Shown here: positions 1,053-39,897 of the stretch, in pieces
Position numbering within the stretch: the first letter of the stretch is position 1
Layout of the letters: each line of letters begins with the position of its first letter
IMG/VR virus record: IMGVR_UViG_3300042878_001988
Location: 1 to 48,775 of that record
DNA length: 48,775 bases
From: a virus
Strand: one strand, 5' to 3'
Translations under genes and position numbers: made by a program
Notes under the pieces: model-generated
What the model saw: the letters and a program-made list of their open reading frames with translations, nothing else
The model's database searches: none
Told to the model about the DNA's origin: nothing

Positions 1053-1064
1053 AAAACAAATATA

Positions 1065-2751: not shown

Positions 2752-2772
2752 AATATTAGTATTGATTTAAAC

Positions 2773-3033
2773 TTATTTGCCACTCAATGTATCATAAAAA
2801 TCTTCAAGTTTTGATAAATCAGATTTACTAAATGCAAAATTAGTATTCTCAAATTTATCTTTCATTGTTGAAAGTTTATCCATAATTTTGTTAATCATAG
2901 ATATTGCTTTTTTACCAGTTGTTGCTTTACTTTCTTTATGGTAGTCCATAAAAAGGCCTTCACTTCCTTTATCTTCAACAATTCTTTTAACTAGTTTATT
3001 TAAACCAGCTTCTGTTAATCTTATTGTTCTCAT
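2773..3033 (-). CDS. Small phage protein with N-terminal RLTE helix motif, unknown function
   Basis: This is an 86-residue protein, one of only two genes on the minus strand here. A TTG 24 bases further upstream is in frame, but the ATG at 3033 is preferred because it begins MRTIRLTEAGLNKLVKRIV, an N-terminal form I recall from many small proteins of environmental phages; no function is known to me. The rest is Lys- and Ser-rich and predicted helical (residues 20-86), with no membrane segment and no signal peptide. A TATTTATA motif reading on the minus strand lies 11 bases before the ATG, the same motif that precedes the structural genes. It shares the bidirectional terminator with nrdA. It could be a virion protein or an assembly factor; I cannot decide. 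Confidence 0.7.
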   Translation of the reverse strand: MRTIRLTEAGLNKLVKRIVEDKGSEGLFMDYHKESKATTGKKAISMINKIMDKLSTMKDKFENTNFAFSKSDLSKLEDFYDTLSGK

Positions 3034-3044
3034 AATTTTTTTTA

Positions 3045-3052
3045 TATAAATA
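3045..3052 (-). promoter_or_regulatory. TATTTATA motif for the minus-strand small gene
   Basis: On the minus strand this reads TATTTATA, 11 bases before the ATG at 3033. Its orientation follows the gene, not the plus strand, which supports a directional promoter role for the motif. Confidence 0.45.
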
Positions 3053-12251: not shown

Positions 12252-12798
12252 ATATAAATTAAGATTACCAAATGTTAATGATTTAACCATAAGCATTCCT
12301 GTTAGTATTAATGTGGAAAATTTAGGTCAAGATGATGTTATTGAACAATATGAAGATACAATAATTAGCAATGCAATAAATGATAAGATAGATTACGAGA
12401 TAGTTAGATTTCAACATAAGGGATATTTTCCTCCAATTCCAGTGTCAGCATCGCCAACACCAACACCAACCCCAACACCAACCCCAACTATGACCTCTAC
12501 TGTAACACCAACCAATACGACAACACCAACATATACACCAACACCATCAGTTACACCAACTATACAACCATCAGCATCTGCTACACCAACATTTACACCA
12601 ACCCCATCAATAACACCAACTATAACACCAACAACTTCAATAACACCATCAATAACACCAACCATAACACCAACAACTTCAATAACACCAACAAATACAA
12701 CAACTCCAACAATGACGCCAACACCATCAGCAACGGAATTAAGATATTATTCATCAAATAATCTAATAGTATTCAATCAAAATTGTAATTCAAATTAA
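12238..12798 (+). CDS. Virion-associated protein with long Thr-Pro linker
   Basis: The 186-residue protein has three parts: an N-terminal section of about 70 residues, a low-complexity Thr-Pro tract (about 71-166) built of units such as TPTPT, TPTITPT and TPSIT, and a short C-terminal end of about 20 residues. The ATG at 12238 is chosen; the in-frame TTG one codon earlier is less likely. It overlaps the previous gene by 14 bases. Thr-Pro tracts are extended, stiff linkers and are common O-glycosylation substrates in other systems. The same kind of tract occurs in three other genes here (21409, 21961, 40271). The short tail after the linker could bind the next gene product. Function unknown. 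Confidence 0.65.
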
Positions 12799-26148: not shown

Positions 26149-29100
26149 ATGCCAACTAGATTAAATATTTATGGTCAGGCCATTTCAACAACGAAGAAAA
26201 GGCCGTGTATTGTTGCAACAACAGGTCATATAGTACTATCTGGAGCAACAACACCAACATCAATTGATGGGATTAATATTGATGTTAATGATAGAATACT
26301 GGTGTGGCAACAAAATTCGCCACAAAATAATGGAATATACAAATTAGAAACATCAGAATTATTAAGCCGTGATTATGATTTTAATATCAGTGACGATGTT
26401 TATACTGGTGTTGAGGTTTTGGTATTATCAGGATTAACATATTCTGGTAAAACATTTTATTTAACAACAACAGATGAGATAACAATTGGAAGTAGTTTAT
26501 TAACATTTGATATTCTTGCTGGTCAAAATGGAACAAGCGGAAGTTCAGGAACAAGTGGTTCATCAGGAACAAGTGGCTCATCTGGAACAAGCGGAAGTTC
26601 AGGAACAAGTGGCTCATCTGGAACAAGTGGAAGTTCAGGAACAAGTGGCTCATCAGGAACAAGTGGAAGTTCAGGAACAAGTGGAAGTTCAGGAACAAGT
26701 GGTTCATCTGGAACAAGTGGCTCATCAGGAACAAGTGGAAGTTCAGGAACAAGTGGAAGTTCAGGTACAAGTGGTTCATCAGGTACAAGCGGAAGTTCAG
26801 GAACAAGTGGCTCATCAGGAACAAGTGGAAGTTCAGGAACAAGTGGAAGTTCAGGAACAAGTGGAAGTTCAGGTACAAGCGGAAGTTCAGGAACAAGTGG
26901 TTCATCAGGAACAAGTGGAAGTTCAGGAACAAGTGGAAGTTCAGGAACAAGTGGAAGTTCAGGAACAAGTGGTTCATCTGGAACAAGTGGAAGTTCAGGA
27001 ACAAGTGGTTCATCAGGTACAAGCGGAAGTTCAGGAACAAGTGGTTCATCTGGAACAAGCGGTTCATCTGGAACAAGCGGAAGTTCAGGTACAAGTGGAA
27101 GTTCTGGAACAAGTGGAAGTTCAGGTACAAGCGGAAGTTCAGGAACAAGTGGTTCATCTGGAACAAGCGGTTCATCTGGAACAAGCGGAAGTTCAGGTAC
27201 AAGTGGAAGTTCTGGAACAAGTGGAAGTTCAGGAACAAGTGGTTCATCAGGTACAAGTGGCTCATCTGGAACAAGCGGTTCATCAGGTACAAGTGGTTCA
27301 TCTGGAACAAGCGGAAGTTCAGGAACAAGTGGAAGTTCAGGAACAAGTGGAAGTTCAGGAACAAGTGGAAGTTCAGGAACAAGTGGAAGTTCAGGAACAA
27401 GTGGCTCATCAGGTACAAGTGGCTCATCAGGTACAAGTGGCTCATCTGGAACAAGCGGAAGTTCAGGAACAAGTGGAAGTTCAGGAACAAGTGGAAGTTC
27501 AGGAACAAGTGGAAGTTCAGGAACAAGTGGCTCATCAGGTACAAGTGGCTCATCTGGAACAAGCGGAAGTTCAGGTACAAGTGGAAGTTCAGGAACAAGT
27601 GGAAGTTCAGGAACAAGTGGCTCATCAGGTACAAGCGGTTCATCAGGTACAAGCGGAAGTTCAGGAACAAGTGGCTCATCAGGAACAAGTGGCTCATCTG
27701 GAACAAGCGGAAGTTCAGGAACAAGCGGAAGTTCAGGTACAAGTGGAAGTTCAGGAACAAGTGGCTCATCTGGAACAAGTGGCTCATCTGGAACAAGCGG
27801 TTCATCAGGTACAAGTGGTTCATCTGGAACAAGCGGAAGTTCAGGAACAAGTGGTTCATCTGGAACAAGTGGTACTGATGGAACAAGTGGCTCATCTGGA
27901 ACAAGTGGAAGTTCAGGAACAAGTGGCTCATCTGGAACAAGCGGAAGTTCAGGAACAAGTGGAAGTTCAGGAACAAGTGGTTCATCTGGAACAAGCGGAA
28001 GTTCAGGTACAAGTGGAACAGCAGGAACAAGTGGAACAAGTCCATCAATAGTAGAATTATCTATTTCAGGTGCAACAAATGGGTCAAATAGAACATTTAC
28101 CATTTCTCAAGAAATTGACCAAGAGGCTAGTTTATTCTTTGTTAATGGTCAATTACAACAATATGGTGATGATTATACCATTGCTGGAAATCAATTAACA
28201 ATTGACTCAGAAAACCCAGCACCAACATCAACATACATATTAAAATTATTTGGCGGTGGTATTCTTTTTGGTATCAATGGAACAAGTGGAACATCAGCCT
28301 TTATTACCTCATCAGCATCAACACCATCACCAATAGATGCAAATTCAATGTGTTTTTGGTTTGACACAGTAAATTTAGAGCCAATGGTTTCTTATTGTGG
28401 GTATAGTGGAGCAGCTTCATGGTCAGCAGGGGGTGCATTGATAACAGGAAACCAGCAATTTGCAGGAGCAGGAACACAGAATGAAGGACTTGTATTTGGA
28501 GGTACTGGTCCTGTATCTTGCACTGAAGAATATAATGGCACATCTTGGTCAACAGGTGGTGCATTAGCAACAGCAAGATGTGGTTTAGCAGGAGCAGGAA
28601 CACAAAATGTAGGACTTGCTTTTGGTGGACATAGTTCATATGGTTCTTGCACAGAAGAATATAATGGTACATCTTGGTCAGCAGGAGGTGCATTAGCAAC
28701 AGCAAGACGATTTTTAGCAGGAGCAGGAACACAGAATGCAGCGCTTGCAGCAGGAGGTACTTATCCAATAACGTCTTGCACAGAAGAATACAATGGTACA
28801 TCTTGGTCAGAAGGAGGTGCATTAGCAACAGCAAGATGTGGTTTAGCAGGAGCAGGATCACAGAATGCAGGACTTGCATTTGGAGGTAATGGTCCTTTAT
28901 CTTGCACAGAAGAATATAATGGTACATCTTGGTCAGCAGGTGGTGTATTAATAGTTGCAAGAAGATTATTAGCAGGAGCAGGAACACAAAACGCAGGACT
29001 TGCATTTGGAGGAACTCCATCAGGATCTTGCACAGAAGAATACAATGGCACATTATGGTCAGCAGGAGGTGCACTGATAACAGGAAGACAAAATTTGGCT

Positions 29101-29739
29101 GGAGCAGGAATACAGAATGCAGCGCTTGCAGCAGGAGGTGGTTATGGATCATTAACTTGCACCGAAGAATACTCAGCACCAATAGTTTTGATTGATAGTT
29201 CAGGTACAGGAACACCAGGTGCAAGTGGAAGTTCAGGAACAAGTGGTGCAGCAGGAAGTAGTGGCACATCAGGTGCATCTGGAACAAGTGGTTCGTCTGG
29301 AACAAGTGGTTCTAATGCTGGAATAACATCATATACAAACCCAGTTGATAATAGGGTATTAACCTCAGTATCATCAACGTCAATAAATGCTGAAGCCAAC
29401 TTAACTTTTGATGGTAGTGTTTTAACTGTTACAGGAACTATAACAGAAACATCAACAGAAAAAGTAAAAGAAAATATAGAAGAAATTAGTAATCCTTTAG
29501 AGATTGTGAAAAAATTAAGAGGAGTAGAATATAACAAAATAGGTAATTCTATAAAAGAAATTGGTTTAATTGCAGAGGAAGTAGATAAAGTGCTACCACA
29601 AGTGGTAATAAAAGATTATGAAGGTAAACCAGCATCTGTCTCATATTCAAGAATAACAGCAATATTAATTGAAGCAATAAAAATACAGAATAAACAAATT
29701 GAAAATTTAACAAAAAGGATTGAAGTATTAGAAAAATAA
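26149..29739 (+). CDS. Long collagen-like tail fiber with kelch-like propeller and S74 chaperone
   Basis: This 1196-residue protein is the main fiber candidate. Residues 1-127 form a fiber N-terminal domain (DRILVWQQN, NNGIYKLE, SRDYDF pattern) that probably binds the baseplate. Residues 128-631 are 168 uninterrupted Gly-X-Y triplets, almost all alternating GTS and GSS. Next is an LFFVNGQLQQYGDDYT domain (about 635-710). Six kelch-like blades follow (about 757-1009), each with W-S-x-GGAL, LAGAGTQNAGLAFGG and CTEEYNGT. A second short Gly-X-Y tract follows, then an intramolecular chaperone domain from S1102 (STEKVKENIEEIS, EIGLIAEEVDKVLP, a terminal coiled coil). In this family, cleavage before the conserved Ser releases the chaperone after trimer folding. 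The usual Ser-Asp is Ser-Thr here, so activity is likely but unproven. Propeller relatives lie at 33381-36226. Confidence 0.88.
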   Translation: MPTRLNIYGQAISTTKKRPCIVATTGHIVLSGATTPTSIDGINIDVNDRILVWQQNSPQNNGIYKLETSELLSRDYDFNISDDVYTGVEVLVLSGLTYSGKTFYLTTTDEITIGSSLLTFDILAGQNGTSGSSGTSGSSGTSGSSGTSGSSGTSGSSGTSGSSGTSGSSGTSGSSGTSGSSGTSGSSGTSGSSGTSGSSGTSGSSGTSGSSGTSGSSGTSGSSGTSGSSGTSGSSGTSGSSGTSGSSGTSGSSGTSGSSGTSGSSGTSGSSGTSGSSGTSGSSGTSGSSGTSGSSGTSGSSGTSGSSGTSGSSGTSGSSGTSGSSGTSGSSGTSGSSGTSGSSGTSGSSGTSGSSGTSGSSGTSGSSGTSGSSGTSGSSGTSGSSGTSGSSGTSGSSGTSGSSGTSGSSGTSGSSGTSGSSGTSGSSGTSGSSGTSGSSGTSGSSGTSGSSGTSGSSGTSGSSGTSGSSGTSGSSGTSGSSGTSGSSGTSGSSGTSGSSGTSGSSGTSGSSGTSGSSGTSGSSGTSGSSGTSGSSGTSGSSGTSGSSGTSGSSGTSGSSGTSGSSGTSGSSGTSGTDGTSGSSGTSGSSGTSGSSGTSGSSGTSGSSGTSGSSGTSGSSGTSGTAGTSGTSPSIVELSISGATNGSNRTFTISQEIDQEASLFFVNGQLQQYGDDYTIAGNQLTIDSENPAPTSTYILKLFGGGILFGINGTSGTSAFITSSASTPSPIDANSMCFWFDTVNLEPMVSYCGYSGAASWSAGGALITGNQQFAGAGTQNEGLVFGGTGPVSCTEEYNGTSWSTGGALATARCGLAGAGTQNVGLAFGGHSSYGSCTEEYNGTSWSAGGALATARRFLAGAGTQNAALAAGGTYPITSCTEEYNGTSWSEGGALATARCGLAGAGSQNAGLAFGGNGPLSCTEEYNGTSWSAGGVLIVARRLLAGAGTQNAGLAFGGTPSGSCTEEYNGTLWSAGGALITGRQNLAGAGIQNAALAAGGGYGSLTCTEEYSAPIVLIDSSGTGTPGASGSSGTSGAAGSSGTSGASGTSGSSGTSGSNAGITSYTNPVDNRVLTSVSSTSINAEANLTFDGSVLTVTGTITETSTEKVKENIEEISNPLEIVKKLRGVEYNKIGNSIKEIGLIAEEVDKVLPQVVIKDYEGKPASVSYSRITAILIEAIKIQNKQIENLTKRIEVLEK
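26530..28041 (+). repeat. 1512-base minisatellite encoding Gly-X-Y repeats
   Basis: The tract is 84 tandem copies of an 18-base unit of the type GGAACAAGTGGTTCATCA, with variation almost only at silent positions and between TCA and AGT serine codons. It encodes 504 residues with Gly at every third position. It stays in frame throughout; one unit has a GTDGTS change near 27871. Higher-order repeats (blocks of several units repeated, for example around 27040-27100 and 27150-27220) indicate repeated internal duplication. Long open frames on both strands in other phases are a by-product of this periodicity. Confidence 0.95.
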
Positions 29740-29744
29740 TACTA

Positions 29745-29752
29745 TATTTATA
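29745..29752 (+). promoter_or_regulatory. TATTTATA motif
   Basis: A perfect TATTTATA lies 15 bases before the ATG at 29768, in a 28-base gap after the long fiber gene. Confidence 0.5.
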
Positions 29753-29767
29753 TTAAATCAAAAAAAC

Positions 29768-30010
29768 ATGAAAAAGTATTATCAAGTAGAAAATTATGGA
29801 CATGGGTTTATTACCCACCAAGAAAATGAAACTGCACATATTGCTGGTTATCCTGGCAACATTTGGGTTACAGAAAACACAACATGGGCACAAAGAGTGA
29901 GTGCTGTTGAAAAGACAAAAGAGCAGGCTCAAGTAATTGTTGATGCTGCTGTTGCATCTTCATATACACCACCTAATAGCACAACTCCACCACCAATAAT
30001 TTTACCTTAA
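29768..30010 (+). CDS. Small protein downstream of long fiber, unknown function
   Basis: This 80-residue protein has an ordered N-terminal part (MKKYYQVENYGHGFITHQEN, then GNIWVTENTTWAQRV) and a Thr/Pro-rich C-terminal tail. It has its own TATTTATA motif and is followed after 11 bases by the next gene. Small genes just after fiber genes often encode fiber assembly factors or capsid/tail decoration parts, but nothing here is diagnostic. No family recognised. Confidence 0.6.
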   Translation: MKKYYQVENYGHGFITHQENETAHIAGYPGNIWVTENTTWAQRVSAVEKTKEQAQVIVDAAVASSYTPPNSTTPPPIILP

Positions 30011-30021
30011 AAAAAAAGTAC

Positions 30022-30702
30022 ATGAATAAAGAATTGCAAATCACAGAAGATTTAAGAGAAATTATTAGTGTTTTAAATGATGAGGACGCACAAACCATTT
30101 TATCATTAAAAGATGAATTAATGGATAATTGGCAAAAAAAACAAATATTTAGAACTGAAACCGAAATGAGAGTTTCGGTTCTAAATGATGCCAAACATCC
30201 AACAAATGCTTCAAAGTATTGGCAATCAGTTAGGGAAATGTCAGCACATTTTGATGCCTTAATGAATTTAAGTTTTGATTTAAGAAAAAACACAGTTGAT
30301 AAATTAAGACTTGATAAGAAGGTTCAAGATTTGTTAGAGGATGAAGAACTTAATAGATTTGATATTATGGAAGCAAACATTGATTTGGACCGCAACATCT
30401 ATGATAGAAATTGTATGTTGCAAGTTTCCAAGGATAGAGTTAGAGAGTTAAGTACGTGGAGTAAGATTAAATCTGAATTAGACAACGAAACTTTTGACAC
30501 TAAAAATGTTAATACTCATCAAGCAGAATCGCTTCACAGGTATTTTGAGAATAGGGTTAAATCATTAAATGATGCATCAGCTCCAGGAGAAATAATGAAT
30601 GCTATGGGTCCATATTTATCATTCAATAGAATGAAGAATGAGGAAGGTACATTATTAAATTTTTTAGGAGAAGTTCCAGAAGACAAGAAGAAATTAAATT
30701 AA
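30022..30702 (+). CDS. Helical cytoplasmic-type protein, unknown function
   Basis: This 226-residue protein is charged and almost entirely helical by composition, with no cysteine motif, membrane segment or signal peptide. Heptad-like patterns (for example LRKNTVDKLRLDKKVQDLLE, about 92-111) suggest coiled-coil or helical-bundle structure. It differs clearly from the Asn/Ser-rich virion proteins around it. It is the first of five genes spaced by 3 bases or overlapping, followed by three oxygenase-like genes and a sulfotransferase-like gene. It may be an adaptor or scaffold for those enzymes or a fiber chaperone, but this is context only. Confidence 0.65.
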   Translation: MNKELQITEDLREIISVLNDEDAQTILSLKDELMDNWQKKQIFRTETEMRVSVLNDAKHPTNASKYWQSVREMSAHFDALMNLSFDLRKNTVDKLRLDKKVQDLLEDEELNRFDIMEANIDLDRNIYDRNCMLQVSKDRVRELSTWSKIKSELDNETFDTKNVNTHQAESLHRYFENRVKSLNDASAPGEIMNAMGPYLSFNRMKNEEGTLLNFLGEVPEDKKKLN

Positions 30703-30705
30703 TTT

Positions 30706-31290
30706 ATGACTAATTTTATTTACACAAAAAACAATGCACTATCAGGAAATGTTTGCCTTAATTTAATAAAGGCTTTTGAAGAATCTGATTTAAAACAACC
30801 AGGTGTTCTTTATGGCCCAGAGGGTATTTCATCTGATAGTGATAAGAAATCAACCGACATCACATTTGATCCCTCTTTTATGAATAAAGAACCTTGGTCT
30901 TTATTATTGGAGGATGTTATTGTTTCAGTTAAAACTGGTGTGTTAGATTATTTAAATAGGCATTCAACTGCAATGTCAAAAATGGATCCTATTGATTTAT
31001 ATACATATTTTAATATGCAAAAATATGAACCAAATGAAGGGTTTTTTGGTTGGCATTGTGAGAGAGCTGGTATAAAGCATTCTGACAGATTATTGGTTTG
31101 GATGGTTTATTTAAATACTTTGACAGATAGAGGTGAAACTGAATTTTTTTATCAGCAACACTTTGAAAGACCAGAGAGAGGGAAACTTGTCATTTGGCCA
31201 TCAGATTGGTCTCATTTGCATAGAGGTGTTCCATCACCTACTGAAACTAAATACATCCTAACTGGGTGGTTCACACATATAAAGAATTAA
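30706..31290 (+). CDS. 2-oxoglutarate/Fe(II) oxygenase, prolyl-4-hydroxylase-like
   Basis: This 194-residue enzyme candidate has the double-stranded beta-helix signature of 2OG/Fe(II) dioxygenases. H117-C-E119 supplies the first two iron ligands (an HxE form), VWMVYLNTLTDRGETEFF forms the core strands, and GKLVIWPSDWSHLHRGV gives the distal histidine (H170 or H172), followed by K182 near the 2-oxoglutarate site. Prolyl hydroxylase-type relatives hydroxylate protein side chains. The gene starts three bases after its upstream neighbour's stop codon and three bases before the next oxygenase gene. Its substrate is unknown; nearby fiber proteins contain Thr-Pro tracts, and their Gly-X-Y repeats contain no proline. 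Confidence 0.85.
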   Translation: MTNFIYTKNNALSGNVCLNLIKAFEESDLKQPGVLYGPEGISSDSDKKSTDITFDPSFMNKEPWSLLLEDVIVSVKTGVLDYLNRHSTAMSKMDPIDLYTYFNMQKYEPNEGFFGWHCERAGIKHSDRLLVWMVYLNTLTDRGETEFFYQQHFERPERGKLVIWPSDWSHLHRGVPSPTETKYILTGWFTHIKN

Positions 31291-31293
31291 TTT

Positions 31294-31896
31294 ATGGATT
31301 TTTCTATACATGAGGAGACATGGTTTTCCACACCTATATGGGAGGCAGAAGTTAAGAACATTGATAATAATGAAATAAAGGATTATTGTTTGTGGTTAAG
31401 GGATAACACAAAAGGTGCATTCATCTCAAATAGAGGTGGTTGGCATAGTAGTGAGATTGTTTTACCATTACCAAATGAATTAATGTCATTATTTAATAAT
31501 CTTGAATTATTTGCTAATGAACAATGCTACAAACATCTAGGTGTGGGAAACTTAAAATTGGGTAATTTTTGGGTTAACATAAACACCAATGGGTCATACA
31601 ATCTTTTGCATGACCATCAAAATAGTATATTATCTGGTGTATATTATGTTTCTGTTCCATATGATAATATGGGAGACTTGGTATTACATAGAGGTGATAC
31701 AGCAGAATATTTTTTGAAGTCAGATGTTGAGAGGGTTAGCACAAAGACAAATTCTTTTGTTGCAGTAAAGAAGCCCATTGAATCTTTATTTTACATTTTT
31801 CCTAGTTGGGTTAGACATCATGTTGAATCAAACTATTCAGATGGTGAGAGAATATCAATTGCATTTAATTTTATACAAGACAAGAAGAAAATATGA
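31294..31896 (+). CDS. Putative 2OG/Fe(II) oxygenase, second of three
   Basis: This 200-residue protein fits the family of putative 2OG/Fe(II) oxygenases sometimes annotated as conserved hypothetical TIGR02466-like. It has the opening FSTPIWEAEV, the metal-binding YNLLHDHQNSILSGVYYVS (H106, D107, H108), a YIFPSWVRHHVESN segment (H175 or H176) and GERISIAFNF with R186 for 2-oxoglutarate. It is the second member of a three-gene oxygenase run and overlaps the third by ATGA. Close relatives occur in large marine phages, where substrates are unknown. It may modify a virion protein, a glycan or a nucleotide. Confidence 0.8.
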   Translation: MDFSIHEETWFSTPIWEAEVKNIDNNEIKDYCLWLRDNTKGAFISNRGGWHSSEIVLPLPNELMSLFNNLELFANEQCYKHLGVGNLKLGNFWVNINTNGSYNLLHDHQNSILSGVYYVSVPYDNMGDLVLHRGDTAEYFLKSDVERVSTKTNSFVAVKKPIESLFYIFPSWVRHHVESNYSDGERISIAFNFIQDKKKI

Positions 31897-32531
31897 AAGC
31901 ACAAGTATTTGCAATATTCCCAACACCTTTATATGTGGCAAATTATGAGGGTGATTTAAAAGAGGTTATTGAATATTTTGATAGGAATGAAATGCAAGAC
32001 ACCAAAGCAGGGTATGGTATGATTTCAAACAATAGTTATATATTGGATAATCCAATATGTGATGAGGTGAATAAGTTTTTTATGGAATCCTTTAAAGATT
32101 TTGCAACAAATGTAATGAGATATAGATATGAGGATTTGCAATTTGCACAATCCTGGTTGACATATAAAGCACCAAAACAATTCCATAAAGCACATACCCA
32201 TCCAAACACCTTATTGGCTGGTGTTTTTTATTATGATGCACAAGAGGATGATGCTGCCATTTGTTTTTCAAAAGATGTTAAATCATTTAATAGATCATAC
32301 TTTGAGCCATCATTACTAGATGATTATCAAAATCATTCATTCTCACAAGAGGAGATATATTATAAACCAAAGAAAAATGATTTTTTAATATTCCCCTCTT
32401 GGTTAACACATGGTGTTCCACCAAACAATACAAATAGGGTGAGAAAAGCATTAGGTGTCAATGCTTTAACAAAAGGCACATTAGGTGATAAAGAAACCAT
32501 TTCAGAAATTATATTTGGAAGATACAAATGA
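31893..32531 (+). CDS. Putative 2OG/Fe(II) oxygenase, third of three
   Basis: This 212-residue protein has the same overall pattern as the preceding gene: an N-terminal FAIFPTPLYVANY, a metal site in QFHKAHTHPNTLLAGVFYYD (H98, H101, H103), FLIFPSWLTHGVPPNN (H173) and an Arg (R182 or R184) that would bind 2-oxoglutarate. The sequence similarity between the second and third copies is low outside these motifs, so this is an old duplication or separate acquisition. The gene overlaps both neighbours by ATGA, showing a tightly coupled unit with the sulfotransferase-like gene that follows. Confidence 0.8.
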   Translation: MKAQVFAIFPTPLYVANYEGDLKEVIEYFDRNEMQDTKAGYGMISNNSYILDNPICDEVNKFFMESFKDFATNVMRYRYEDLQFAQSWLTYKAPKQFHKAHTHPNTLLAGVFYYDAQEDDAAICFSKDVKSFNRSYFEPSLLDDYQNHSFSQEEIYYKPKKNDFLIFPSWLTHGVPPNNTNRVRKALGVNALTKGTLGDKETISEIIFGRYK

Positions 32532-33346
32532 AACAAAAGATATTTTTTAATTCAACGTTACCAAGGAGTGGTAGCACTTTATTACAAAACATAATGGGAC
32601 AAAATCCTGAATTTCATGTAACACCAACATCAGGTCTAATTGATTTGATGTTAGGAGCAAGAATAGGATACAATCAAAACCATGAATCAAAGGCTGGTGA
32701 TACAGAAATGTGGAAAGAGGGTTTCTATAATTTCTGTAAAGAAGGTATAAAAGCATATGTTTCATCACAAACATCAAAACCATATTATTTGGATAAGAAT
32801 AGGGTATGGGCGTTTTATTATAACCTATTATCAAATGTGGTAGAAAATCCAAAAGTAATATATATGGTTAGGGATTTACCATCCATATTTGCATCAATGG
32901 AGAAGAAGTTTAGAATGAATCCTGATAAAGATGATGGCACAATGGATAATATCAAAATGAAAGGGACAACAACACATAAGAGAGTTGAACTATGGGCGCA
33001 AACAGTTCCTGTAGGTTATTCATTGGAAAAATTACAACAAACATTATTGGATGGTACAGCAAAGAACTTTCTATTCATTAAATATGAAGACCTATGCAGT
33101 AATCCAGAAATGGTGATGAGAAACATTTATAAATATTTAGAAGTAGATGATTTCAAACATAATTTTCAACATATAAGTCAAGTCACAGTAGAAAATGATG
33201 CAATACATGGGATATATGGTGATCATATTATAAGGAATAGTTTGAATATGTTACCAAATGATTCAAAAAATGTGCTAGGTCAATATACAGTTGATTCCAT
33301 AAAGACATCCTATAAGTGGTACAATGATTTCTTTGGGTATAAATAA
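32528..33346 (+). CDS. Sulfotransferase-like protein (PAPS-dependent)
   Basis: This 272-residue protein carries the two nucleotide-binding motifs of PAPS sulfotransferases. Near the N-terminus STLPRSGSTLLQNIMGQNP (9-27) is the 5'-phosphosulfate loop, and VIYMVRDLPSIFASM (110-124) is the 3'-phosphate motif with the conserved Arg and Ser. Such enzymes transfer sulfate to hydroxyl groups of sugars, tyrosines or lipids. The gene overlaps the last oxygenase gene by ATGA. The combination of hydroxyl-making and sulfate-adding enzymes between fiber and glycosyltransferase genes suggests modification of fiber or glycan, which is inference. Sulfotransferases are rare in phages. PAPS would have to come from the host. 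Confidence 0.82.
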   Translation: MKQKIFFNSTLPRSGSTLLQNIMGQNPEFHVTPTSGLIDLMLGARIGYNQNHESKAGDTEMWKEGFYNFCKEGIKAYVSSQTSKPYYLDKNRVWAFYYNLLSNVVENPKVIYMVRDLPSIFASMEKKFRMNPDKDDGTMDNIKMKGTTTHKRVELWAQTVPVGYSLEKLQQTLLDGTAKNFLFIKYEDLCSNPEMVMRNIYKYLEVDDFKHNFQHISQVTVENDAIHGIYGDHIIRNSLNMLPNDSKNVLGQYTVDSIKTSYKWYNDFFGYK

Positions 33347-33359
33347 AGTTAGGAGATGA

Positions 33360-33367
33360 TATTTATA
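33360..33367 (+). promoter_or_regulatory. TATTTATA motif before the propeller array
   Basis: A perfect TATTTATA lies 13 bases before the ATG at 33381 and would drive all three propeller genes, which have no promoter-sized gaps between them. Confidence 0.5.
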
Positions 33368-33379
33368 ATAAAAAAAGAA

Positions 33380-33428
33380 TATGGCAAAATTACAAAGTAC
33401 AGAAATAATAGGAGTTGCAAATAGACCT
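33380..33428 (+). repeat. Shared 5' leader of the propeller genes, copy 1
   Basis: About 49 bases covering the start codon and first 16 codons (MAKLQSTEIIGVANRP) are the same at 34332-34380 and 35281-35329, apart from the last base or two. The conservation of the DNA, not just protein, fits recent tandem duplication and gives a ready site for homologous recombination. Confidence 0.85.
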
Positions 33429-34331
33429 GCAACAATATGTTCAAATACGATGTGCATTTGGTTTGATACAGTTAATTTAAAACCAGTCATTTCATATTGT
33501 GGATATAGTCCTCCTTGGTCAGTAGGTGGCGCAATGATAACAGCAAGATGTGGTTTAGCAGGAGCAGGAACGCAAGATGCAGGTCTTGTGTTTGGAGGCT
33601 TTGCTAGTTTTTCTCCAAAATCTTGTACAGAAGAATACGATGGTGCATCTTGGTCAGCAGGTGGTGCATTATCAATAGCAAGACTTGGTTTAGCAGGAGC
33701 AGGAACACAGAATGAAGGACTTGCTTTTGGGGGAGGCGCTAGTTATTCTCCAATATCTTGTACAGAAGAATATAATGGCACATCGTGGTCATCAGGCGGT
33801 GCATTGATAGAAGCAAGGAGTTCTTTAGCAGGAGTAGGAACACAAAATGCAGGACTTGCATTAGGAGGTTATGCTAGTTATTCTCCATCATCTTGCACAG
33901 AAGAATATGATGGTACAACTTGGGCAACAGGAGGTGCATTGATAGAAGCAAGGAGTTCTTTAGCAGGAGCAGGAACACAGAATGCAGGACTTGCTTTTGG
34001 AGGAACTCCATCAGGATCTTGCACAGAAGAATACAATGGTACATCTTGGTCAGCAGGAGGTGCGTTGATAACAGCAAAATGTGGCTTAGCAGGAGCAGGA
34101 ACACAGAATGCAGGACTTGCTTTTGGTGGTAACTCTTTTGCTGTGCCTGATACACAAGAATATAACGGCAGTTCTTGGGTGGCAGGCGGCAAATTATTAT
34201 CAGTGAGATGTTCTTTAGCAGGAGCAGGGACGCAAAGTGCAGGACTTGCTATGGGTGGGTATAATGGTTCATGTGTTTCTTGTACAGAAGAATACATTAA
34301 AACAATCGCAATAATAGATTCAATACGATAA
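33381..34331 (+). CDS. Kelch-like propeller protein, copy 1
   Basis: This 316-residue protein has a short leader (MAKLQSTEIIGVANRP) followed by a CIWFDTVNLKPVISYCGY element and six kelch-like blades of 42-46 residues, each with a Trp, GGAL or GGAM, LAGAGTQ, GLxxGG and CTEEY. The same leader element and blades form residues about 740-1009 of the long fiber. It lacks the Gly-X-Y shaft and the chaperone. Blade 4 carries the variable GTPSGSCTEEYNG loop also seen in blade 5 of the long fiber. Blade 3 shares an identical 88-base tract with copy 3. It may be a free receptor-binding head or a donor cassette for the fiber gene. Confidence 0.85.
   Translation: MAKLQSTEIIGVANRPATICSNTMCIWFDTVNLKPVISYCGYSPPWSVGGAMITARCGLAGAGTQDAGLVFGGFASFSPKSCTEEYDGASWSAGGALSIARLGLAGAGTQNEGLAFGGGASYSPISCTEEYNGTSWSSGGALIEARSSLAGVGTQNAGLALGGYASYSPSSCTEEYDGTTWATGGALIEARSSLAGAGTQNAGLAFGGTPSGSCTEEYNGTSWSAGGALITAKCGLAGAGTQNAGLAFGGNSFAVPDTQEYNGSSWVAGGKLLSVRCSLAGAGTQSAGLAMGGYNGSCVSCTEEYIKTIAIIDSIR
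33782..33869 (+). repeat. 88-base tract identical to 35803-35890
   Basis: This segment of blade 3 in propeller copy 1 is base-for-base identical by eye to a segment of blade 4 in copy 3, including silent positions. It points to gene conversion or a recent duplication between cassettes. Confidence 0.85.
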
Positions 34332-34332
34332 T

Positions 34333-35280
34333 ATGGCAAAATTACAAAGTACAGAAATAATAGGAGTTGCAAATAGACCAGCAGTAATATGCGCTGATAC
34401 TGTATGTTTATGGTTTAATACAACAATTAAACAGTTAGTTTTCTCATATTCCGGTTTTTCAGGATCCTGGTCGGCAGGGAATGCATTGATAACAGCAAGA
34501 GGTTATTTAGCAGGAGCAGGGACGCAGAATGCAGGACTTGCTATAGGCGGGTATAATGGTAGTATTCTTTCTTGCACGGAAGAATACGATGGTACATCAT
34601 GGTCAGCAGGCGGAGCATTATCAATAGCAAGATATCGGTTAGGAGGAGCAGGGACACAGAGTGTAGGACTTGTGTTTGGAGGCCGTAATCCGGGCGCTCT
34701 TTCTTGTACAGAAGAATACGATGGGACATCTTGGTTAGCAGGCGGAGCATTGATAATAGCGAGGTTTGGACCAGCAAGTGCAGGTACACAGGACGCAGGA
34801 CTTGCATTTGGAGGTTTTGTAAATAATAGTAGTACCTGCACTGAAGAGTACAATGGTACATCTTGGTCAACAGGTGGCGCATTGATTAGTTCAAGACATA
34901 ATTTAGCAGGAGCAGGAACACAGAATGCAGGACTTGCTTTTGGGGGAACATTTCCAAATGGTGATTGCACTGAAGAATACAACGGCACAACTTGGTTAAC
35001 AGGTGGTGCATTGATAATAGGAAGAGAAGGTACAGGGACAGGAACACAGAATGAAGGACTTTTTATAGGAGGCATAGTAACAAATACTGGTGTTTCTTGT
35101 ACAGAAGAATATGATGGCGCATCTTGGTCAGTAGGTGGGGCAATGATAGTAGCAAGGCACACACTAGCAGGTGCAGGAACACAAAGCGCAGGACTTGCTA
35201 TAGGTGGGTATATGAATAATGGAGTTTCTTGTACAGAAGAGTACACTAAAACAATAACAATAGTAGATTCAATACGATAA
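34333..35280 (+). CDS. Kelch-like propeller protein, copy 2
   Basis: This 315-residue paralogue has the same leader and six blades as its neighbours, but the most divergent loops (for example FGGRNPGALSC, IGGIVTNTGVSC, IGGYMNNGVSC). The loops between the GG and CTEEY elements vary in length and sequence while the framework stays constant, as expected if they form the ligand-contacting face. The gene starts one base after the stop codon of copy 1. It ends with TKTITIVDSIR, close to the end of copy 1 (IKTIAIIDSIR), so the unit duplicated from end to end. Confidence 0.85.
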   Translation: MAKLQSTEIIGVANRPAVICADTVCLWFNTTIKQLVFSYSGFSGSWSAGNALITARGYLAGAGTQNAGLAIGGYNGSILSCTEEYDGTSWSAGGALSIARYRLGGAGTQSVGLVFGGRNPGALSCTEEYDGTSWLAGGALIIARFGPASAGTQDAGLAFGGFVNNSSTCTEEYNGTSWSTGGALISSRHNLAGAGTQNAGLAFGGTFPNGDCTEEYNGTTWLTGGALIIGREGTGTGTQNEGLFIGGIVTNTGVSCTEEYDGASWSVGGAMIVARHTLAGAGTQSAGLAIGGYMNNGVSCTEEYTKTITIVDSIR

Positions 35281-35281
35281 T

Positions 35282-36226
35282 ATGGCAAAATTACAAAGTA
35301 CAGAAATAATAGGAGTTGCAAATAGACCAGCAGTAATATGCACTGATACTGTATGTTTATGGTTTGATACAACAAATTTGAAATCAATGGCATCATATTG
35401 CACTTTTTTAGGATCCTGGTCTGCAGGAGGTGCATTGATAACAGCAAGACTTGGTTTAGCAGGAGCAGGAACACAGAATGAAGGACTTGCTTTTGGAGGA
35501 TATTGTAATGAAGGTTTATCATGTACAGAAGAATATAATGGCACAAGTTGGTCAGCAGGGGGTGCATTAATAACAGCAAGACATTTTTTAGCAGGAGCAG
35601 GAACAGAAAACGCAGGACTTGCTTTTGGTGGTAGTTATTCAGGTTCATGTACCGAAGAATATAATGGTACGGCTTGGTCAGCAGGGGGTGCATTGATAGA
35701 AGCAAGGAGTTCTTTAGCAGGAGTAGGAACACAGAATGCAGGACTTGCTATGGGGGGCGGTGGTTATTCTCCAATATCTTGTACAGAAGAATATGATGGT
35801 ATATCGTGGTCATCAGGCGGTGCATTGATAGAAGCAAGGAGTTCTTTAGCAGGAGTAGGAACACAAAATGCAGGACTTGCATTAGGAGGTGGTGGTTATG
35901 GACCAACATCTTATACAGAAGAATACAATGGCACAACTTGGACAACAGGAGGTGCATTGATAGAAGGAAGGGGTTCTTTAGCAGGAGCAGGCTCACAGAA
36001 TGCAGGACTTGCTTTTGGTGGTGCTGCTAGTTATTCTCCAAAATCTTGTACAGAAGAATATAATGGCACATCTTGGTCATCACGCGGAGCATTATTAATA
36101 GCAAGGTGTTCTTTAGCAGGAGCAGGAACACAAAGCGTAGGGCTTGCTTTTGGAGGAACTCCATCAGGATCTTGTACAGAAGAATATGATGGAGATATTT
36201 TAATAATAAGAGACATTATTTTATAA
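35282..36226 (+). CDS. Kelch-like propeller protein, copy 3
   Basis: This 314-residue paralogue starts one base after copy 2 stops. It has six blades. Blades 3 and 4 are close duplicates of each other (GGALIEARSSLAGVGTQNAG), and blade 4 begins within an 88-base tract identical to copy 1. Blade 6 carries the GTPSGSC loop seen also in copy 1 and in the long fiber. The C-terminus differs from copies 1 and 2, ending DGDILIIRDIIL, so the last strand has been replaced. One blade has S-R-GAL in place of GGAL and another has SYTEEY in place of SCTEEY, showing that framework changes are tolerated or that this copy is decaying. Confidence 0.85.
   Translation: MAKLQSTEIIGVANRPAVICTDTVCLWFDTTNLKSMASYCTFLGSWSAGGALITARLGLAGAGTQNEGLAFGGYCNEGLSCTEEYNGTSWSAGGALITARHFLAGAGTENAGLAFGGSYSGSCTEEYNGTAWSAGGALIEARSSLAGVGTQNAGLAMGGGGYSPISCTEEYDGISWSSGGALIEARSSLAGVGTQNAGLALGGGGYGPTSYTEEYNGTTWTTGGALIEGRGSLAGAGSQNAGLAFGGAASYSPKSCTEEYNGTSWSSRGALLIARCSLAGAGTQSVGLAFGGTPSGSCTEEYDGDILIIRDIIL
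35803..35890 (+). repeat. 88-base tract identical to 33782-33869
   Basis: This is the partner tract in propeller copy 3. The flanking loops differ, so only the blade framework and its silent sites are shared exactly. Confidence 0.85.
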
Positions 36227-36297
36227 ATGTTTTAAAAATCATCATACACAATAGTAGATTGCGTCTTATAATTATAAAACCTATAAATAAAAAATTA

Positions 36298-37185
36298 ATG
36301 GATTTAACAACAGAAAAAATTTTAGTATGGCACATTCAAGGTGGATTAGGAAAGAATGTTGCAGCTACATCATTACCAAAGACAATAAAAGAAATTTATC
36401 CAGATAGACAACTTATAATGGTTGTATCATATCCTGAAGTTTTTCTAAATAATCCTTATGTTGATAGGGTGTATCCATTAGGTAATTGCCCCTACTTTTA
36501 CCAGGATTTTGTAGAGAACAAGGATACTCTTGTTTTTAGACATGAGCCGTATCATCAAACGGGTCATATACATAAGGAGAAGCATCTGGTAAGTAACTGG
36601 TGTGATTTGCTTAATATAGAGTATAGCAATCAGATACCCCAACTTTTCCCAAATTACGCAGAGAAGGTTAATGCAAAGAAATGGTTTAGGGATAAACCAG
36701 TGGTGGTATTACAAACATCTGGTGGTGATTTAGAATCAAAGAATATATATTCTTGGTGTAGGGATATGCCACAAGATATTGCACAATTGATTGTTGACAA
36801 GTACAAGGACAGCCACCATATATTCCATATAACAAGGAAAGGTGGTTATGTTTTGAATGATACAGAGAGGCTTGATGTTAAGTTATCTAATATGGAGTTG
36901 TTTAGTATATTGACAGTTTCGTCCAAGAGATTTTTAATAGATTCTTCTTTGCAACATGCGGCAGTTGCTATTAATTTGCGGTCAACTGTGTTTTGGATTG
37001 GAACATCACCCAAGGTTTTTGGGTATGACTTGCACAATAATATTGTTGCAAATCAGCCCAAAAACAAGAACCAATTAATTGGTTCATACTTGTTTGACTA
37101 TCAGTTTGATTTTAATGTACATGAGTGTCCGTATAGCACATTGGATGAAATGTTTGATATGGATTTTGTTATATCAAATATTTAA
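36298..37185 (+). CDS. Glycosyltransferase, GT9/heptosyltransferase-like
   Basis: This 295-residue protein has the layout of family 9 glycosyltransferases: an opening WHIQGGLGKNVAATSLPKTI with the Gly-rich loop, then YPDRQLIMVVSYPEVFLNNP and VDRVYPLG, and a C-terminal donor-binding half with FLIDSSLQHAAVAINLRSTVFWIGTSP in place of the usual D-S-G-x-x-H-x-A motif. ATG at 36298 is preferred; an in-frame TTG at 36259 adds 13 doubtful residues. The gene follows the propeller array and converges on a larger glycosyltransferase, overlapping its end by 12 bases. No cysteine finger is present. It may build or extend a sugar on the fibers, or alter host surface sugars. Confidence 0.75.
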   Translation: MDLTTEKILVWHIQGGLGKNVAATSLPKTIKEIYPDRQLIMVVSYPEVFLNNPYVDRVYPLGNCPYFYQDFVENKDTLVFRHEPYHQTGHIHKEKHLVSNWCDLLNIEYSNQIPQLFPNYAEKVNAKKWFRDKPVVVLQTSGGDLESKNIYSWCRDMPQDIAQLIVDKYKDSHHIFHITRKGGYVLNDTERLDVKLSNMELFSILTVSSKRFLIDSSLQHAAVAINLRSTVFWIGTSPKVFGYDLHNNIVANQPKNKNQLIGSYLFDYQFDFNVHECPYSTLDEMFDMDFVISNI

Positions 37186-39897
37186 ATTTGTATGCTGTTT
37201 CAAATTAAGTATAACATCTTCGGGTGTTATACTTTTTTGGCATTCGTGTTGTCTGGATGTTCCTTTATGTATTGGGCACCAGTTCCAATCTCCTTTATCA
37301 AATTTGAAGTTTGGGTTTGTCCAACAAGAGTTGCATACATTATGATTATATATTCTTGTTGTATTTGTTGTGAATTCATGATTTAAATCAGTGAAATTGT
37401 TAATCATAACCACATGTTTATTAATTGCCCAACTTAACCAACTCAAGCCACTTCCCAGACCAATGAATATTTCAGAATGGTGAATATAATTCATAATGTT
37501 ATTTATGTCATAATTGTTTGGAGTTATGGCATTTTTGATATTATTTCCTTCTTTTGAAATGTTTATAACGGTATATCCTTTGCTATTTAAAAATTCTGTT
37601 AGTTCATCCCATCCATTTGGGTATAGCCAGAATTTTAAGGCTGATGTGGAGTGGGTTGCAATTGTTATGTATTTTTCTTTTATGGGTCTTTTCTTTGGTA
37701 TGAAATCAATGGTTGGTTTTATTTCGGTATAATCTAGGCCAAGGATATTTGTTGCTGTCATTTGTAATGGTATTATATTTGGTAATATTGGTTCCATTTG
37801 ATTATTATAGAACCAACCAAGGGTATATTTTGCATGTATATTTTGGGCAACTTGACCAGGTATAATGAACTCAATGTTTGGATATGTTTTTTCAAAGAAG
37901 TTATTCCAGAAGGTTGATGCAACAACCTTGCAATTATGTTTTTTTGAGAATTCATCAATGTAAGGCATCCATGCAACGGAATCACCAAGAGATTTTGAAT
38001 CAATGGCAATATAAACCCTTTTATTGGTTAAATCCATATTAAAGACATGTTTCCCTTTTTGGTTGCTAACAGTGATTTCCCAATCAACAAAATATTTTAT
38101 GGATGATTTTGTCCAATTGTTTCTCCCAATATTTGATTTGTATTCAATTTTGTTTGTTTTTTTATTTTTGAATGTAATATCATATCTTATGTTTGGACCA
38201 CCAGTTATTTCAACAAATGGACCATCAATAAAATTAATATTAATATTTGGTTCAATATCAGTTGTTTTTAATTCATATATGTCAAAACTTGAAAATTGGT
38301 TATGAACACCTTCCAAGTCTGTTGTTACTTTATCAGTTAAGCATTTTTCAACAACATTAAACTTATAATCTTTGATTAAATCATACATTTTTTCCTCAAA
38401 CTTCTTGAAGTTGATATAAAATATTAATTTTGTTTTGTAATAGTTAAATAACTCCAATAATGGGGTTATGTTGCCAGAAAAGAAATTGGTTTTATATCCA
38501 TCATTTTTATCTATGTTATTATTGTAATATAAAATTAAATCCTTTGAATTAAGCTGTTTATAATTATCATTTAATGTGTCAGAATATATTAATGTATCAT
38601 AATTTACAATATGTATTTTCTTTTTGTTTAATTTATCTGCAAAGTTGACACCCTGCTTTATTAAGTTATAAACTCCAAAACTATGTTCAAAAGGCATTGA
38701 AGTACTTGTTTTTTCCCCTTTTGCATTTATCTTCCAATATTCAAATATAACATTATGTTCTTCATATTCATCTTTATCCAATAATTGATTATCTTTTGAA
38801 TATAATACATAATCACATAATGATTGGGTTTCTTCATCAACTGGTTTATTGCATGATAATATGATTTCTGTATTGATGGTTGACAAACATCTTTTTAGCA
38901 TATTTTTTCTAAATAAGTTATTTGTGTGAGCCAATACAATGGTTACTTCATCTTCATTTCTTTTTTTATCTTCATTCAATAGATTGATTAATAATTTCTT
39001 ATTCTCTTCTGGGTTATCTGTGGAATATACTGCCTTATTATCATAATAATTTTCATATGTATGTAAGTTTTTTGTTATAATTTTAAGACCAAAGGATGAT
39101 GCTTCTTTTAATGATAAGGGATTCAATTCATATATTGATGGGAAATAGAATAAATCAGACGCTTCATAATAATTCAATGGGTTTTCTTGTTCCCCGTGTA
39201 TAACGCAATTCTTTGGTAAATCATCCAATATTGGTTTCCAATATTCATAGAAGTTTCCAGCCATATTTCCAACAAAATGAAATATTATTTTCTCATCTTG
39301 GCACAATCTAGCGACTTCAATTATTTCCTTTTGGTTTTTACCTTGTGTAAATAATCCAACATGTAGGACATGTTTATAAGAGGGGTCAAATCCAAGGAGT
39401 TCTTGTTTTTGCTTTTTCTTTGGTATTTTCTTTGGAATGTGGTATTCCCATATGGTTAATGGAACTCCTGTTTTTACAAATTGCTTCTTGCTCCATTCTG
39501 ATACTAAGATATATTTATCTGGATGAAATTTTATATCATTTGGATTTGTCCATGATCCATGTGTGGTGACAAATATCTTATAACCTTGGTCACGTTGAAA
39601 TATCTTGAAAAGGATATCATCTGACAAATTGAATTCAGGTACTTCTTGAAAATGAATAATGTCAGGACTAATGTTATTTATGTGTGTTAATATTTCAGAT
39701 TTATCATCCCCAAGTGTAATAACATTTACAAGTTCTTTAATCTTATTCTTTTGTACAACATAATCACCGCTTACATTTGCTATTTCAATGACATAAATAT
39801 TATATACAGGAAGAAATTCTTCAATTTGTTTGAGAAGATATTGCGGTAAACCCCCAGTTGATAAATGCGGTGTTACAAATAATAATTTTTCTTTCAT
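37174..39897 (-). CDS. Multidomain glycosyltransferase with TibC/Aah-like O-heptosyltransferase end
   Basis: This 907-residue protein has at least three parts. Residues 1-330 are a GT4-type GT-B glycosyltransferase (FVTPHLSTGGLPQYL, LHVGLFTQGKNQKEII, SIYELNPLSLKEASSFG). Residues 335-550 are less clear and may be a reduced GT-A-like domain. Residues 560-907 resemble autotransporter O-heptosyltransferases (TibC/Aah family): ITGGPNIRYDITF in a beta domain, SKSLGDSVAWMPY (D639), THSTSALKFW (K755), FIGLGSGLSWLSWA, and a finger C855-x2-C858-x15-C874-x11-C886 with GDWNWCP and HECQKSITPE. In that family the finger binds iron and the enzyme adds heptose to many Ser residues of surface repeats. The neighbouring Ser/Thr-rich fibers are plausible acceptors. 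It has no TATTTATA motif and may be expressed at another time. Confidence 0.82.
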   Translation of the reverse strand: MKEKLLFVTPHLSTGGLPQYLLKQIEEFLPVYNIYVIEIANVSGDYVVQKNKIKELVNVITLGDDKSEILTHINNISPDIIHFQEVPEFNLSDDILFKIFQRDQGYKIFVTTHGSWTNPNDIKFHPDKYILVSEWSKKQFVKTGVPLTIWEYHIPKKIPKKKQKQELLGFDPSYKHVLHVGLFTQGKNQKEIIEVARLCQDEKIIFHFVGNMAGNFYEYWKPILDDLPKNCVIHGEQENPLNYYEASDLFYFPSIYELNPLSLKEASSFGLKIITKNLHTYENYYDNKAVYSTDNPEENKKLLINLLNEDKKRNEDEVTIVLAHTNNLFRKNMLKRCLSTINTEIILSCNKPVDEETQSLCDYVLYSKDNQLLDKDEYEEHNVIFEYWKINAKGEKTSTSMPFEHSFGVYNLIKQGVNFADKLNKKKIHIVNYDTLIYSDTLNDNYKQLNSKDLILYYNNNIDKNDGYKTNFFSGNITPLLELFNYYKTKLIFYINFKKFEEKMYDLIKDYKFNVVEKCLTDKVTTDLEGVHNQFSSFDIYELKTTDIEPNININFIDGPFVEITGGPNIRYDITFKNKKTNKIEYKSNIGRNNWTKSSIKYFVDWEITVSNQKGKHVFNMDLTNKRVYIAIDSKSLGDSVAWMPYIDEFSKKHNCKVVASTFWNNFFEKTYPNIEFIIPGQVAQNIHAKYTLGWFYNNQMEPILPNIIPLQMTATNILGLDYTEIKPTIDFIPKKRPIKEKYITIATHSTSALKFWLYPNGWDELTEFLNSKGYTVINISKEGNNIKNAITPNNYDINNIMNYIHHSEIFIGLGSGLSWLSWAINKHVVMINNFTDLNHEFTTNTTRIYNHNVCNSCWTNPNFKFDKGDWNWCPIHKGTSRQHECQKSITPEDVILNLKQHTNLNI
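37207..37238 (+). terminator. Strong intrinsic terminator with UUCG tetraloop
   Basis: A 12-pair stem (37207-37218 with 37223-37234, one G-U pair) closes a C-UUCG-G tetraloop and runs into a T-tract (37233-37238). It lies 21 bases after the GT9-like stop codon on the plus strand, inside the last codons of the convergent minus-strand gene. Confidence 0.85.

Follow-up and report, generated by a model that had tools for sequence, protein, structure and literature searches.

The virus record IMGVR_UViG_3300042878_001988, obtained from environmental DNA, analysed here over its whole length of 48,775 bases (the window) and possibly a fragment, encodes a tail fiber whose shaft is a long run of Gly-Thr-Ser and Gly-Ser-Ser (GTS/GSS) triplets and, 3' of it on the opposite strand, a 907-residue glycosyltransferase (GT) ending in a domain of the TibC family. 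Judged by sequence comparison across viral records, the TibC-type enzyme and the Ser/Thr collagen-like fiber are a real, well linked pair. We put at about two in three the probability that this enzyme is a TibC-type protein O-glycosyltransferase of the phage, placing sugars on the Ser and Thr residues of this shaft, with the glycan possibly extended by GT4-like and GT9-like glycosyltransferases and a sulfotransferase. By analogy with TibC, the reaction is probably a heptosylation. To our knowledge, the composition of GTS/GSS fibers has been left unexplained so far, though such fibers are common in phage metagenomes; a linked glycosyltransferase offers a concrete, testable reason for it and, if the proposal is true, would explain how a collagen-like rod is stable without proline.

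The TibC-family domain and the Ser/Thr shaft

The N-terminus of the 907-residue protein is GT4-like (PF00534, 50 bits, cut-off 26.4), and its C-terminal region belongs to the family TIGR04414 (hepto_Aah_TibC), with 283 bits over residues 547-900 against an equivalog cut-off of 200. An earlier reading of the letters and their open reading frames (ORFs), here called the sequence-only reading, had noticed this TibC/Aah-like end, and the structural comparison that it had called for agrees: the best PDB relative of the domain is TibC (E 2e-45; 6e-73 by profile), and the predicted model of the domain matched TibC 4rb4 with Z 27.4 over 351 residues (root-mean-square deviation 3.4). By alignment, Asp639, Thr751, Lys755 and Trp820 correspond to TibC Asp110, Thr226, Lys230 and Trp305, and Cys855, Cys858, Cys874 and Cys886 to the iron-finger Cys339, Cys342, Cys358 and Cys370. 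Neither the catalytic Asp, nor the Thr, Lys and Trp, nor the four cysteines vary among the 31 aligned viral sequences, of which the window's is one.

In TibC, as described in the available part of PMC4358343, the Thr and Lys hold the phosphate, Arg286 makes contact with the adenine and is essential for activity, and Pro300 sets the stereochemistry of the heptose. Three of the four sugar-binding residues of TibC are kept in the window. The fourth, Arg286, is replaced by Ile, and among the 31 viral sequences the same site is occupied by Thr (26), Ile (2), Val (1), Ala (1) or Arg (1); we thus claim kinship and the general reaction, not identical donor binding. The Pro300 site is Ser in 29 of the 31 viral sequences, as in AAH, and Gly in the window. 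Among the neighbours examined there are phage structural genes and the collagen-like fiber and no autotransporter partner, so that the enzyme is described here as working like TibC and not as an autotransporter heptosyltransferase. The same family is matched elsewhere with 317 bits in Microcystis phage Mel-JY01, 285 bits in L009, 282 bits in L052 and 263 bits in L075. Searches of the open-licence literature turned up no account of a phage with a TibC-type enzyme.

The fiber is a collagen-like tail fiber by its Pfam matches (Collagen, 243 bits; Peptidase_S74 chaperone, 41 bits). Residues 128-631 consist of Gly-X-Y triplets (GTS 85, GSS 81, GTD 1, GTA 1), amounting to exactly the 504-residue shaft of the sequence-only reading; 149 pure GTS/GSS triplets run uninterrupted over residues 128-574, and neither Pro nor Lys occurs in the shaft. 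The unbroken run can be written as 74 hexapeptide units, which are encoded by 16 DNA variants and yield a single peptide. Adjacent units show 166 codon differences, all of them synonymous and none non-synonymous, where a synonymous share of about 26% is expected for single changes to the commonest shaft unit; one Ser position of the unit is even written as AGY 41 times and as TCN 33 times. It is therefore the peptide repeat, more than a DNA repeat, that is maintained, and the shaft repeat is kept at the protein level.

TibC-type genes and shaft type across viral records

Relatives of the TibC domain were used as one set of anchors (the best 80 of 164, falling into 49 clusters), and shafts were recognised by the array pattern (G[ST][ST])6, with at least 133 GTS/GSS loci confirmed among at least 599 pattern matches. 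To compare shaft types, a Ser/Thr set was drawn from the best tblastn matches and a Gly-X-Gln set from the first matches of a pattern scan. The Ser/Thr set comprised 80 loci, from which the window-like L253, L255, L261 and L262, records shorter than 20 kb, L323 (the same record as L309) and L270 (20.2 kb, TibC-positive) were left out; 58 records remained and 50 were searched, and five of the other eight (L325, L327, L329, L331 and L332) have TibC in the locus itself. The Gly-X-Gln set comprised 45 records of at least 20 kb among 80 loci taken from at least 120 matched stretches, with clear in-frame Gly-X-Gln runs in 71 of the 80 loci; the Ser/Thr pattern was also checked in one of the 45 records (G097).

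TibC was found in 24 of the 50 Ser/Thr-shaft records versus one of the 45 Gly-X-Gln-shaft records (p 1.9e-7), and in 23/47 versus 1/45 when near-duplicates were removed from the Ser/Thr set (p 1.2e-7); the Gly-X-Gln records are the longer ones (median 50.9 kb, against 40.7 kb). Starting from the enzyme, the array was present in the locus DNA at 26 of the 49 non-redundant TibC loci, the window's own included, and in seven of 14 records searched whole for the remaining 23, giving 33/49 overall; TibC record L068 has a shorter Ser/Thr array only. With S74 fibers as anchors, TibC occurred in three of eight loci with the array and in one of 59 without it (2/7 versus 1/59 with the window removed, p 0.028). 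The gene order is recurrent as well. The shaft lies 3' of TibC on the opposite strand in 25 of 26 TibC-anchored loci, and TibC lies 3' of the shaft in 18 Ser/Thr-anchored loci and 5' in two; where at least 8 kb of flank was available, TibC stood within 8 kb on the 3' side in 11/23 and on the 5' side in 1/27, with mixed orientation. Proline at the X position is absent from the shaft runs of 69 of 77 Ser/Thr loci, versus 15 of 71 Gly-X-Gln loci.

The same association is seen within the window's own lineage. Most of its closest relatives keep the order fiber, 226-residue gene, three oxygenases, sulfotransferase, one to five Kelch-type genes and GT9-like gene, and in the more distant L348 and L349 this set is smaller and rearranged. 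Within the close lineage, TibC is present in all three members with a Ser/Thr shaft (the window, L345, and L346 with its near-copy L350) and in none of the four with a Gly-X-Gln shaft (L344, L342 with its near-copy L343, L339 and L340, whose records span 24 to 93 kb and may be incomplete), with a one-sided p of 0.029. L341 and L349 (no fiber shaft in either locus), L348 (no TibC, no collagen shaft) and L092 were kept outside this count. The link between a TibC-type enzyme and a Ser/Thr fiber, conjectured in the sequence-only reading, is thus supported by the record counts, by the 3' position and by the close lineage.

Both parts also occur in a named isolate, Microcystis phage Mel-JY01 (PP395634, L591), whose host is recorded as Microcystis elabens and which, going by its record, is presumably in culture. 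The protein that contains its TibC-type domain carries the annotation methyltransferase FkbM. On the same strand, positions 2-3052 form a GTS/GSS-type frame of at least 1016 residues; in the annotation of PP395634.1, most of this frame is covered by the reverse-strand genes WWT39286.1 and WWT39287.1, with a short forward gene placed at the end. A search of the open-licence literature for the name Mel-JY01 found no paper. An isolate with a recorded host and both parts makes the question testable. The uncultured phage LR756501 (735 kb) likewise carries a TibC-type gene and a Ser/Thr shaft.

A tree of 104 sequences, built without the TibC and AAH of E. coli, separates most of the viral sequences from 19 bacterial TibC-type ones, which form a clade of their own (support 100/99; Acetobacteraceae, Trinickia, Selenomonadaceae and one Lentisphaeria); at none of these 19 loci does the locus DNA contain a GTS/GSS array. 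Among 31 loci with a bacterial or archaeal label, six, all outside that clade, do combine TibC with arrays (L351, L353, L356, L357, L366 and L378); they are perhaps contigs of phages that ended up in metagenome bins. The viral sequences themselves do not form a single clean group (five label changes), and some long branches make the details unsure. TibC sequences with the recurring arrangement are mostly 48-55% identical to the window's. Large proteins near TibC in L043, L047 and L050 end in a putatively intein-like stretch.

Neighbouring genes and supply genes

The genes named in the sequence-only reading are all open reading frames where it had placed them (Table 1). As it had called from motifs, three are 2-oxoglutarate (2OG)-Fe(II) oxygenases and one is a 3'-phosphoadenosine 5'-phosphosulfate (PAPS) sulfotransferase, each with profile scores above the cut-off. 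The GT9-like call holds by fold and not by sequence family: no Pfam, NCBIfam or PHROG family was matched over cut-off and no convincing PDB relative was found by profile (best E 0.5), while the predicted model (pLDDT 71) matched in Foldseek the ADP-heptose lipopolysaccharide heptosyltransferase II 1psw (E 2.4e-9) and the GT9 structure 3tov (E 8e-9), with TM of about 0.5-0.6, and has a GT-B fold.

Table 1. Features of the window discussed in the text
Feature	Position	Strand	Description
Second fiber, 835 aa	23500..26007	+	Shorter G[ST][ST] runs
Tail fiber, 1196 aa	26149..29739	+	N-terminal head, collagen-like GTS/GSS shaft, Kelch-type blades, C-terminal S74 chaperone
Fiber shaft	26530..28041	+	168 Gly-X-Y triplets; likely acceptor of the TibC domain
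Kelch-type blades of the fiber	28303..29235	+	Same repeat as in the three free-standing Kelch-type genes (alignment)
Conserved 226-aa protein	30022..30702	+	Head of the cassette
2OG-Fe(II) oxygenase	30706..31290	+	PF13640, 41.5 bits (cut-off 27)
2OG-Fe(II) oxygenase	31294..31896	+	PF13759, 83.9 bits (cut-off 27)
2OG-Fe(II) oxygenase, second PF13759 copy	31893..32531	+	PF13759, 68.6 bits (cut-off 27)
PAPS-type sulfotransferase	32528..33346	+	Sulfotransfer_3, PF13469, 70 bits (cut-off 27)
Three tandem free-standing Kelch-type repeat genes	33381-34331, 34333-35280, 35282-36226	+	
GT9-like glycosyltransferase	36259..37185	+	By fold only
Glycosyltransferase, 907 aa	37174..39897	-	GT4-like N-terminal domain, middle region (residues 340-545), TibC-family domain
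TibC-family domain, residues 545-907	37177..38265	-	TIGR04414, PDB TibC and model match

These genes had been read as a single module in which all the enzymes act on the shaft. That idea is rejected, because close relatives keep the oxygenases, the sulfotransferase and the GT9-like gene together with Gly-X-Gln shafts and without TibC; in the window's lineage these enzymes are therefore not tied to the shaft. For the sulfotransferase and GT9-like pair this is the very finding that the sequence-only reading had named as speaking against it, and the pair's place in the module holds in one respect only, namely that the two stand beside TibC in other phages, usually with an adenosine 5'-phosphosulfate (APS) kinase. 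Indeed, among 48 TibC loci the sulfotransferase and GT9 occur together in all seven that have either of them, GT9 stands beside the sulfotransferase in three of four cases in the Ser/Thr-shaft set (71 loci), and an APS kinase-like gene is present in nine of ten TibC loci with a sulfotransferase. The pair is thus a plausible partner of TibC in other phages. We set aside, for lack of support, the idea that the oxygenases hydroxylate the shaft: these genes are kept whatever the shaft type, a shaft of this composition has no Pro or Lys, and their relatives are rare at other TibC loci (oxA 2, oxB 1 and oxC 1 of 48). Within the window's lineage the oxygenases go with the Kelch cassette, and they probably serve another role than a sugar coat.

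Genes that could supply the sugar are found beside TibC in the viral contig L075 (11531-17041), where an ADP-heptose epimerase-like gene (168 bits), an HldE kinase-like gene (138 bits) and an HldE adenylyltransferase-like gene (92 bits) are followed by an APS kinase-like gene, a sulfotransferase and GT9; no other locus in the sets searched showed heptose genes. APS kinase-like genes occur in six TibC clusters and in four Ser/Thr-shaft loci (all four with TibC, which three have in the locus and L300 at another place in its record), and none was found in the baseplate, S74 and Gly-X-Gln loci. A small nucleotidyltransferase accompanies the APS kinase-like gene in nine of ten cases (L031, L032, L042, L065, L075, L077, L270, L276 and L300; not L274); that of L031 weakly resembles ATP sulfurylase, below cut-off, and the small protein may complete the supply of PAPS. 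A search of the window with the supply genes of L075 and L031 gave no match, and no ADP-heptose synthesis gene was found in it.

The sequence-only reading had passed over the three free-standing Kelch-type genes. Their repeat profile is related to solved Kelch propellers (Kelch protein 9tsn, E 1.2e-14); two of the free-standing genes, scanned singly, had no Pfam match. The longest identical DNA stretch is 44 bases between the fiber blades and a Kelch-type gene and 88 bases between Kelch-type genes, which is suggestive of sequence exchange between the blades and the free-standing genes. The latter may be a store of receptor-binding variants. At the position equivalent to 33381-36226, close relatives carry from one to five copies of such genes.

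Other Ser/Thr-rich proteins are encoded in the window. The second fiber is a possible additional acceptor, and its counterpart in the window-like locus L333 has 51 G[ST][ST] triplets. Pro-Thr repeat proteins, which are also possible acceptors, lie at 12235-12798, 21961-23406 and 40271-41917. Within the last of these, a 36-base repeat at 40469-40736 encodes an acidic stretch of the EVIEEVQEV type.

Proposed mechanism, alternatives and known systems

We infer a mechanism, including its acceptor, its sugar, the order of its steps and its benefit. In it, the TibC-family domain would take an activated sugar, most likely ADP-heptose from the lipopolysaccharide pool of the host, and would add it at many sites of a repetitive acceptor, the shaft, much as TibC modifies autotransporters. 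Extension and sulfation of the glycan might then fall to the fused GT4-like domain, the GT9-like protein and the sulfotransferase, unless these modify another virion protein; the oxygenases would stand outside the mechanism. The likely benefit would be a proline-free shaft that is both stiffened and shielded, and a sugar coat on fibers is suggested to matter for stability, binding or shielding. According to the available part of PMC3368898, bacterial and viral collagens are without hydroxyproline, and proline at X and glycosylation of Thr are named among the stabilisers of their rods. Since Ser/Thr shafts are mostly without Pro at X and Thr glycosylation is a known stabiliser, we propose that the sugar may take the stabilising place of proline in the shaft. 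A wider idea, put forward tentatively and with the odds against it, is that aquatic phages would build proteoglycan-like fibers, with proline-free shafts heptosylated by TibC-type enzymes, extended by GT9 and GT4 and sulfated, that some of them would supply their own ADP-heptose and PAPS, that the sugar would replace proline or hydroxyproline, and that shaft composition and glycosylation would coevolve.

Several observations weigh against shaft glycosylation by the TibC-type enzyme. As regards the enzyme, the replacement of Arg286 means that its sugar donor may differ from that of TibC, and the sugar genes of L075 score below the NCBI equivalog cut-offs, the heptose family still being the best match for each. 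As regards the association, 26 of the 50 Ser/Thr-shaft records are without TibC (many such records break at the repeat), and G030 and G043 have a Ser/Thr shaft and long 3' flanks and no TibC. Conversely, TibC occurs without a Ser/Thr shaft in L056, L047, L054, L046, L019, L077, G045 and G097. Among the close relatives, the TibC match of L346 is divergent and partial, and its shaft mixes GTS/GSS with Gly-Pro-Gln triplets. Among long baseplate-anchored records, the Ser/Thr pattern is present in 8/16 and TibC in 0/16, at first sight a strong objection. Five of these eight (G020, G022, G023, G024 and G025) end inside the shaft ORF or no more than 2.4 kb 3' of it. In G017 there is no shaft ORF, G016 lacks TibC with flanks of 1.4 to 8.6 kb, and only G030 counts as a true negative (a 101-kb record searched whole, 40 kb of it read closely). 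TibC was likewise found within 10 kb of the baseplate anchors in 0/57 stretches, none of which contains a shaft, so that this figure is no real control.

Two further points of the same kind are also those that would fit shared ancestry, that is, TibC and Ser/Thr shafts being both common in one aquatic phage group with no functional link between them: the Ser/Thr and Gly-X-Gln samples were drawn differently and are not lineage-matched, and the RNR-anchored sample of 17 records, chosen regardless of shaft, shows a trend only, with a shaft in 2/4 TibC-positive and 1/13 TibC-negative records (p 0.12). Three window copies and L404, which is the L008 record with both TibC and shaft, had been excluded from that sample beforehand; adding L404 gives p 0.044, and in both double-positive records among the 17 TibC and shaft are convergent and within about 4 kb. 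We regard shared ancestry alone as improbable, because TibC and shaft type change together in one close lineage and because the arrangement recurs across TibC sequences that are mostly only about half identical to the window's.

That the TibC-type enzyme acts on some other Ser/Thr-rich phage protein, either a Pro-Thr repeat or a Kelch-type one, with the shaft as a bystander, is unlikely. It would suit L092 (record G045), which has TibC, no Ser/Thr collagen pattern in the record and two long Pro-Thr repeat proteins (1106 and 1202 residues, each with about 300 Thr and 112-117 Pro), and the window too encodes proteins of this kind; TibC, however, tracks shaft composition across the two record sets, and TibC-negative close relatives retain their Kelch-type genes. 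We give a similarly small chance to an action of the enzymes on glycans or proteins of the host surface, serving receptor change or phage exclusion, in which case they would lie near the fiber since accessory genes gather there. Phage glycosyltransferases that change the host serotype are described in the available part of PMC12619734, and eight TibC loci (L042, L043, L046, L047, L050, L054, L056 and L057) have no shaft in the locus DNA and neighbours that look non-structural by eye. Four of these eight (L042, L043, L050 and L057) nevertheless have the shaft pattern elsewhere in the record, and a host-surface target would predict neither that Ser/Thr and Gly-X-Gln shafts should differ in their share of TibC nor that TibC should usually sit 3' of the shaft gene; TibC itself, moreover, modifies a protein (PMC4358343, available part). 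Modification of phage DNA bases by the glycosyltransferases and oxygenases is very improbable. DNA-acting 2OG oxygenases are known, and lower-ranking PHROG matches of two of the window's oxygenases are labelled DNA endonuclease; DNA-acting phage glycosyltransferases are also described in the available part of PMC12619734. Against this, the TibC domain exceeds the equivalog cut-off of a protein O-heptosyltransferase family, the genes lie among structural genes, and family scans of ten cassette proteins named no base-modification enzyme.

Glycosylation of the shaft by the TibC-type enzyme can be compared with several known systems. Sugars on Thr or Ser of Gly-X-Y triplets are known from BclA, a bacterial collagen-like protein, and from Thr-galactosylated worm collagen, both of which are non-viral and glycosylated by other enzymes. 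The closest likeness is with the bacterial autotransporter heptosyltransferases TibC and AAH (BAHT, TIGR04414), with which the window's enzyme has in common the fold, the catalytic Asp, the Thr/Lys/Trp sugar site and the four-Cys iron finger, as well as the association with a repetitive surface adhesin. It differs from them in being phage-encoded, in its fusion to a GT4-like domain and in having Ile for Arg286, and its partner is a collagen-like tail fiber instead of an autotransporter. TibC is a ring-shaped dodecamer, and its authors proposed a processive action on the adhesin TibA (PMC4358343, available part).

Glycans on virion proteins, predicted for the window from its genes, would be shared with mycobacteriophages, whose virion glycans are reportedly added by phage enzymes. 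In mycobacteriophages the glycans sit on the C-termini of capsid and tail tube subunits (Freeman et al. 2023, as told in the available part of PMC12619734), whereas in the window the predicted system would involve a fiber shaft, a TibC-type enzyme and possibly sulfation. With EPclA of E. coli prophages the window's fiber shares a Gly-X-Y shaft in a trimeric phage fiber protein; in EPclA, according to the available part of PMC3368898, the X position is rich in Pro and the recombinant protein was unglycosylated, whereas the window's shaft is devoid of Pro and has a glycosyltransferase gene nearby.

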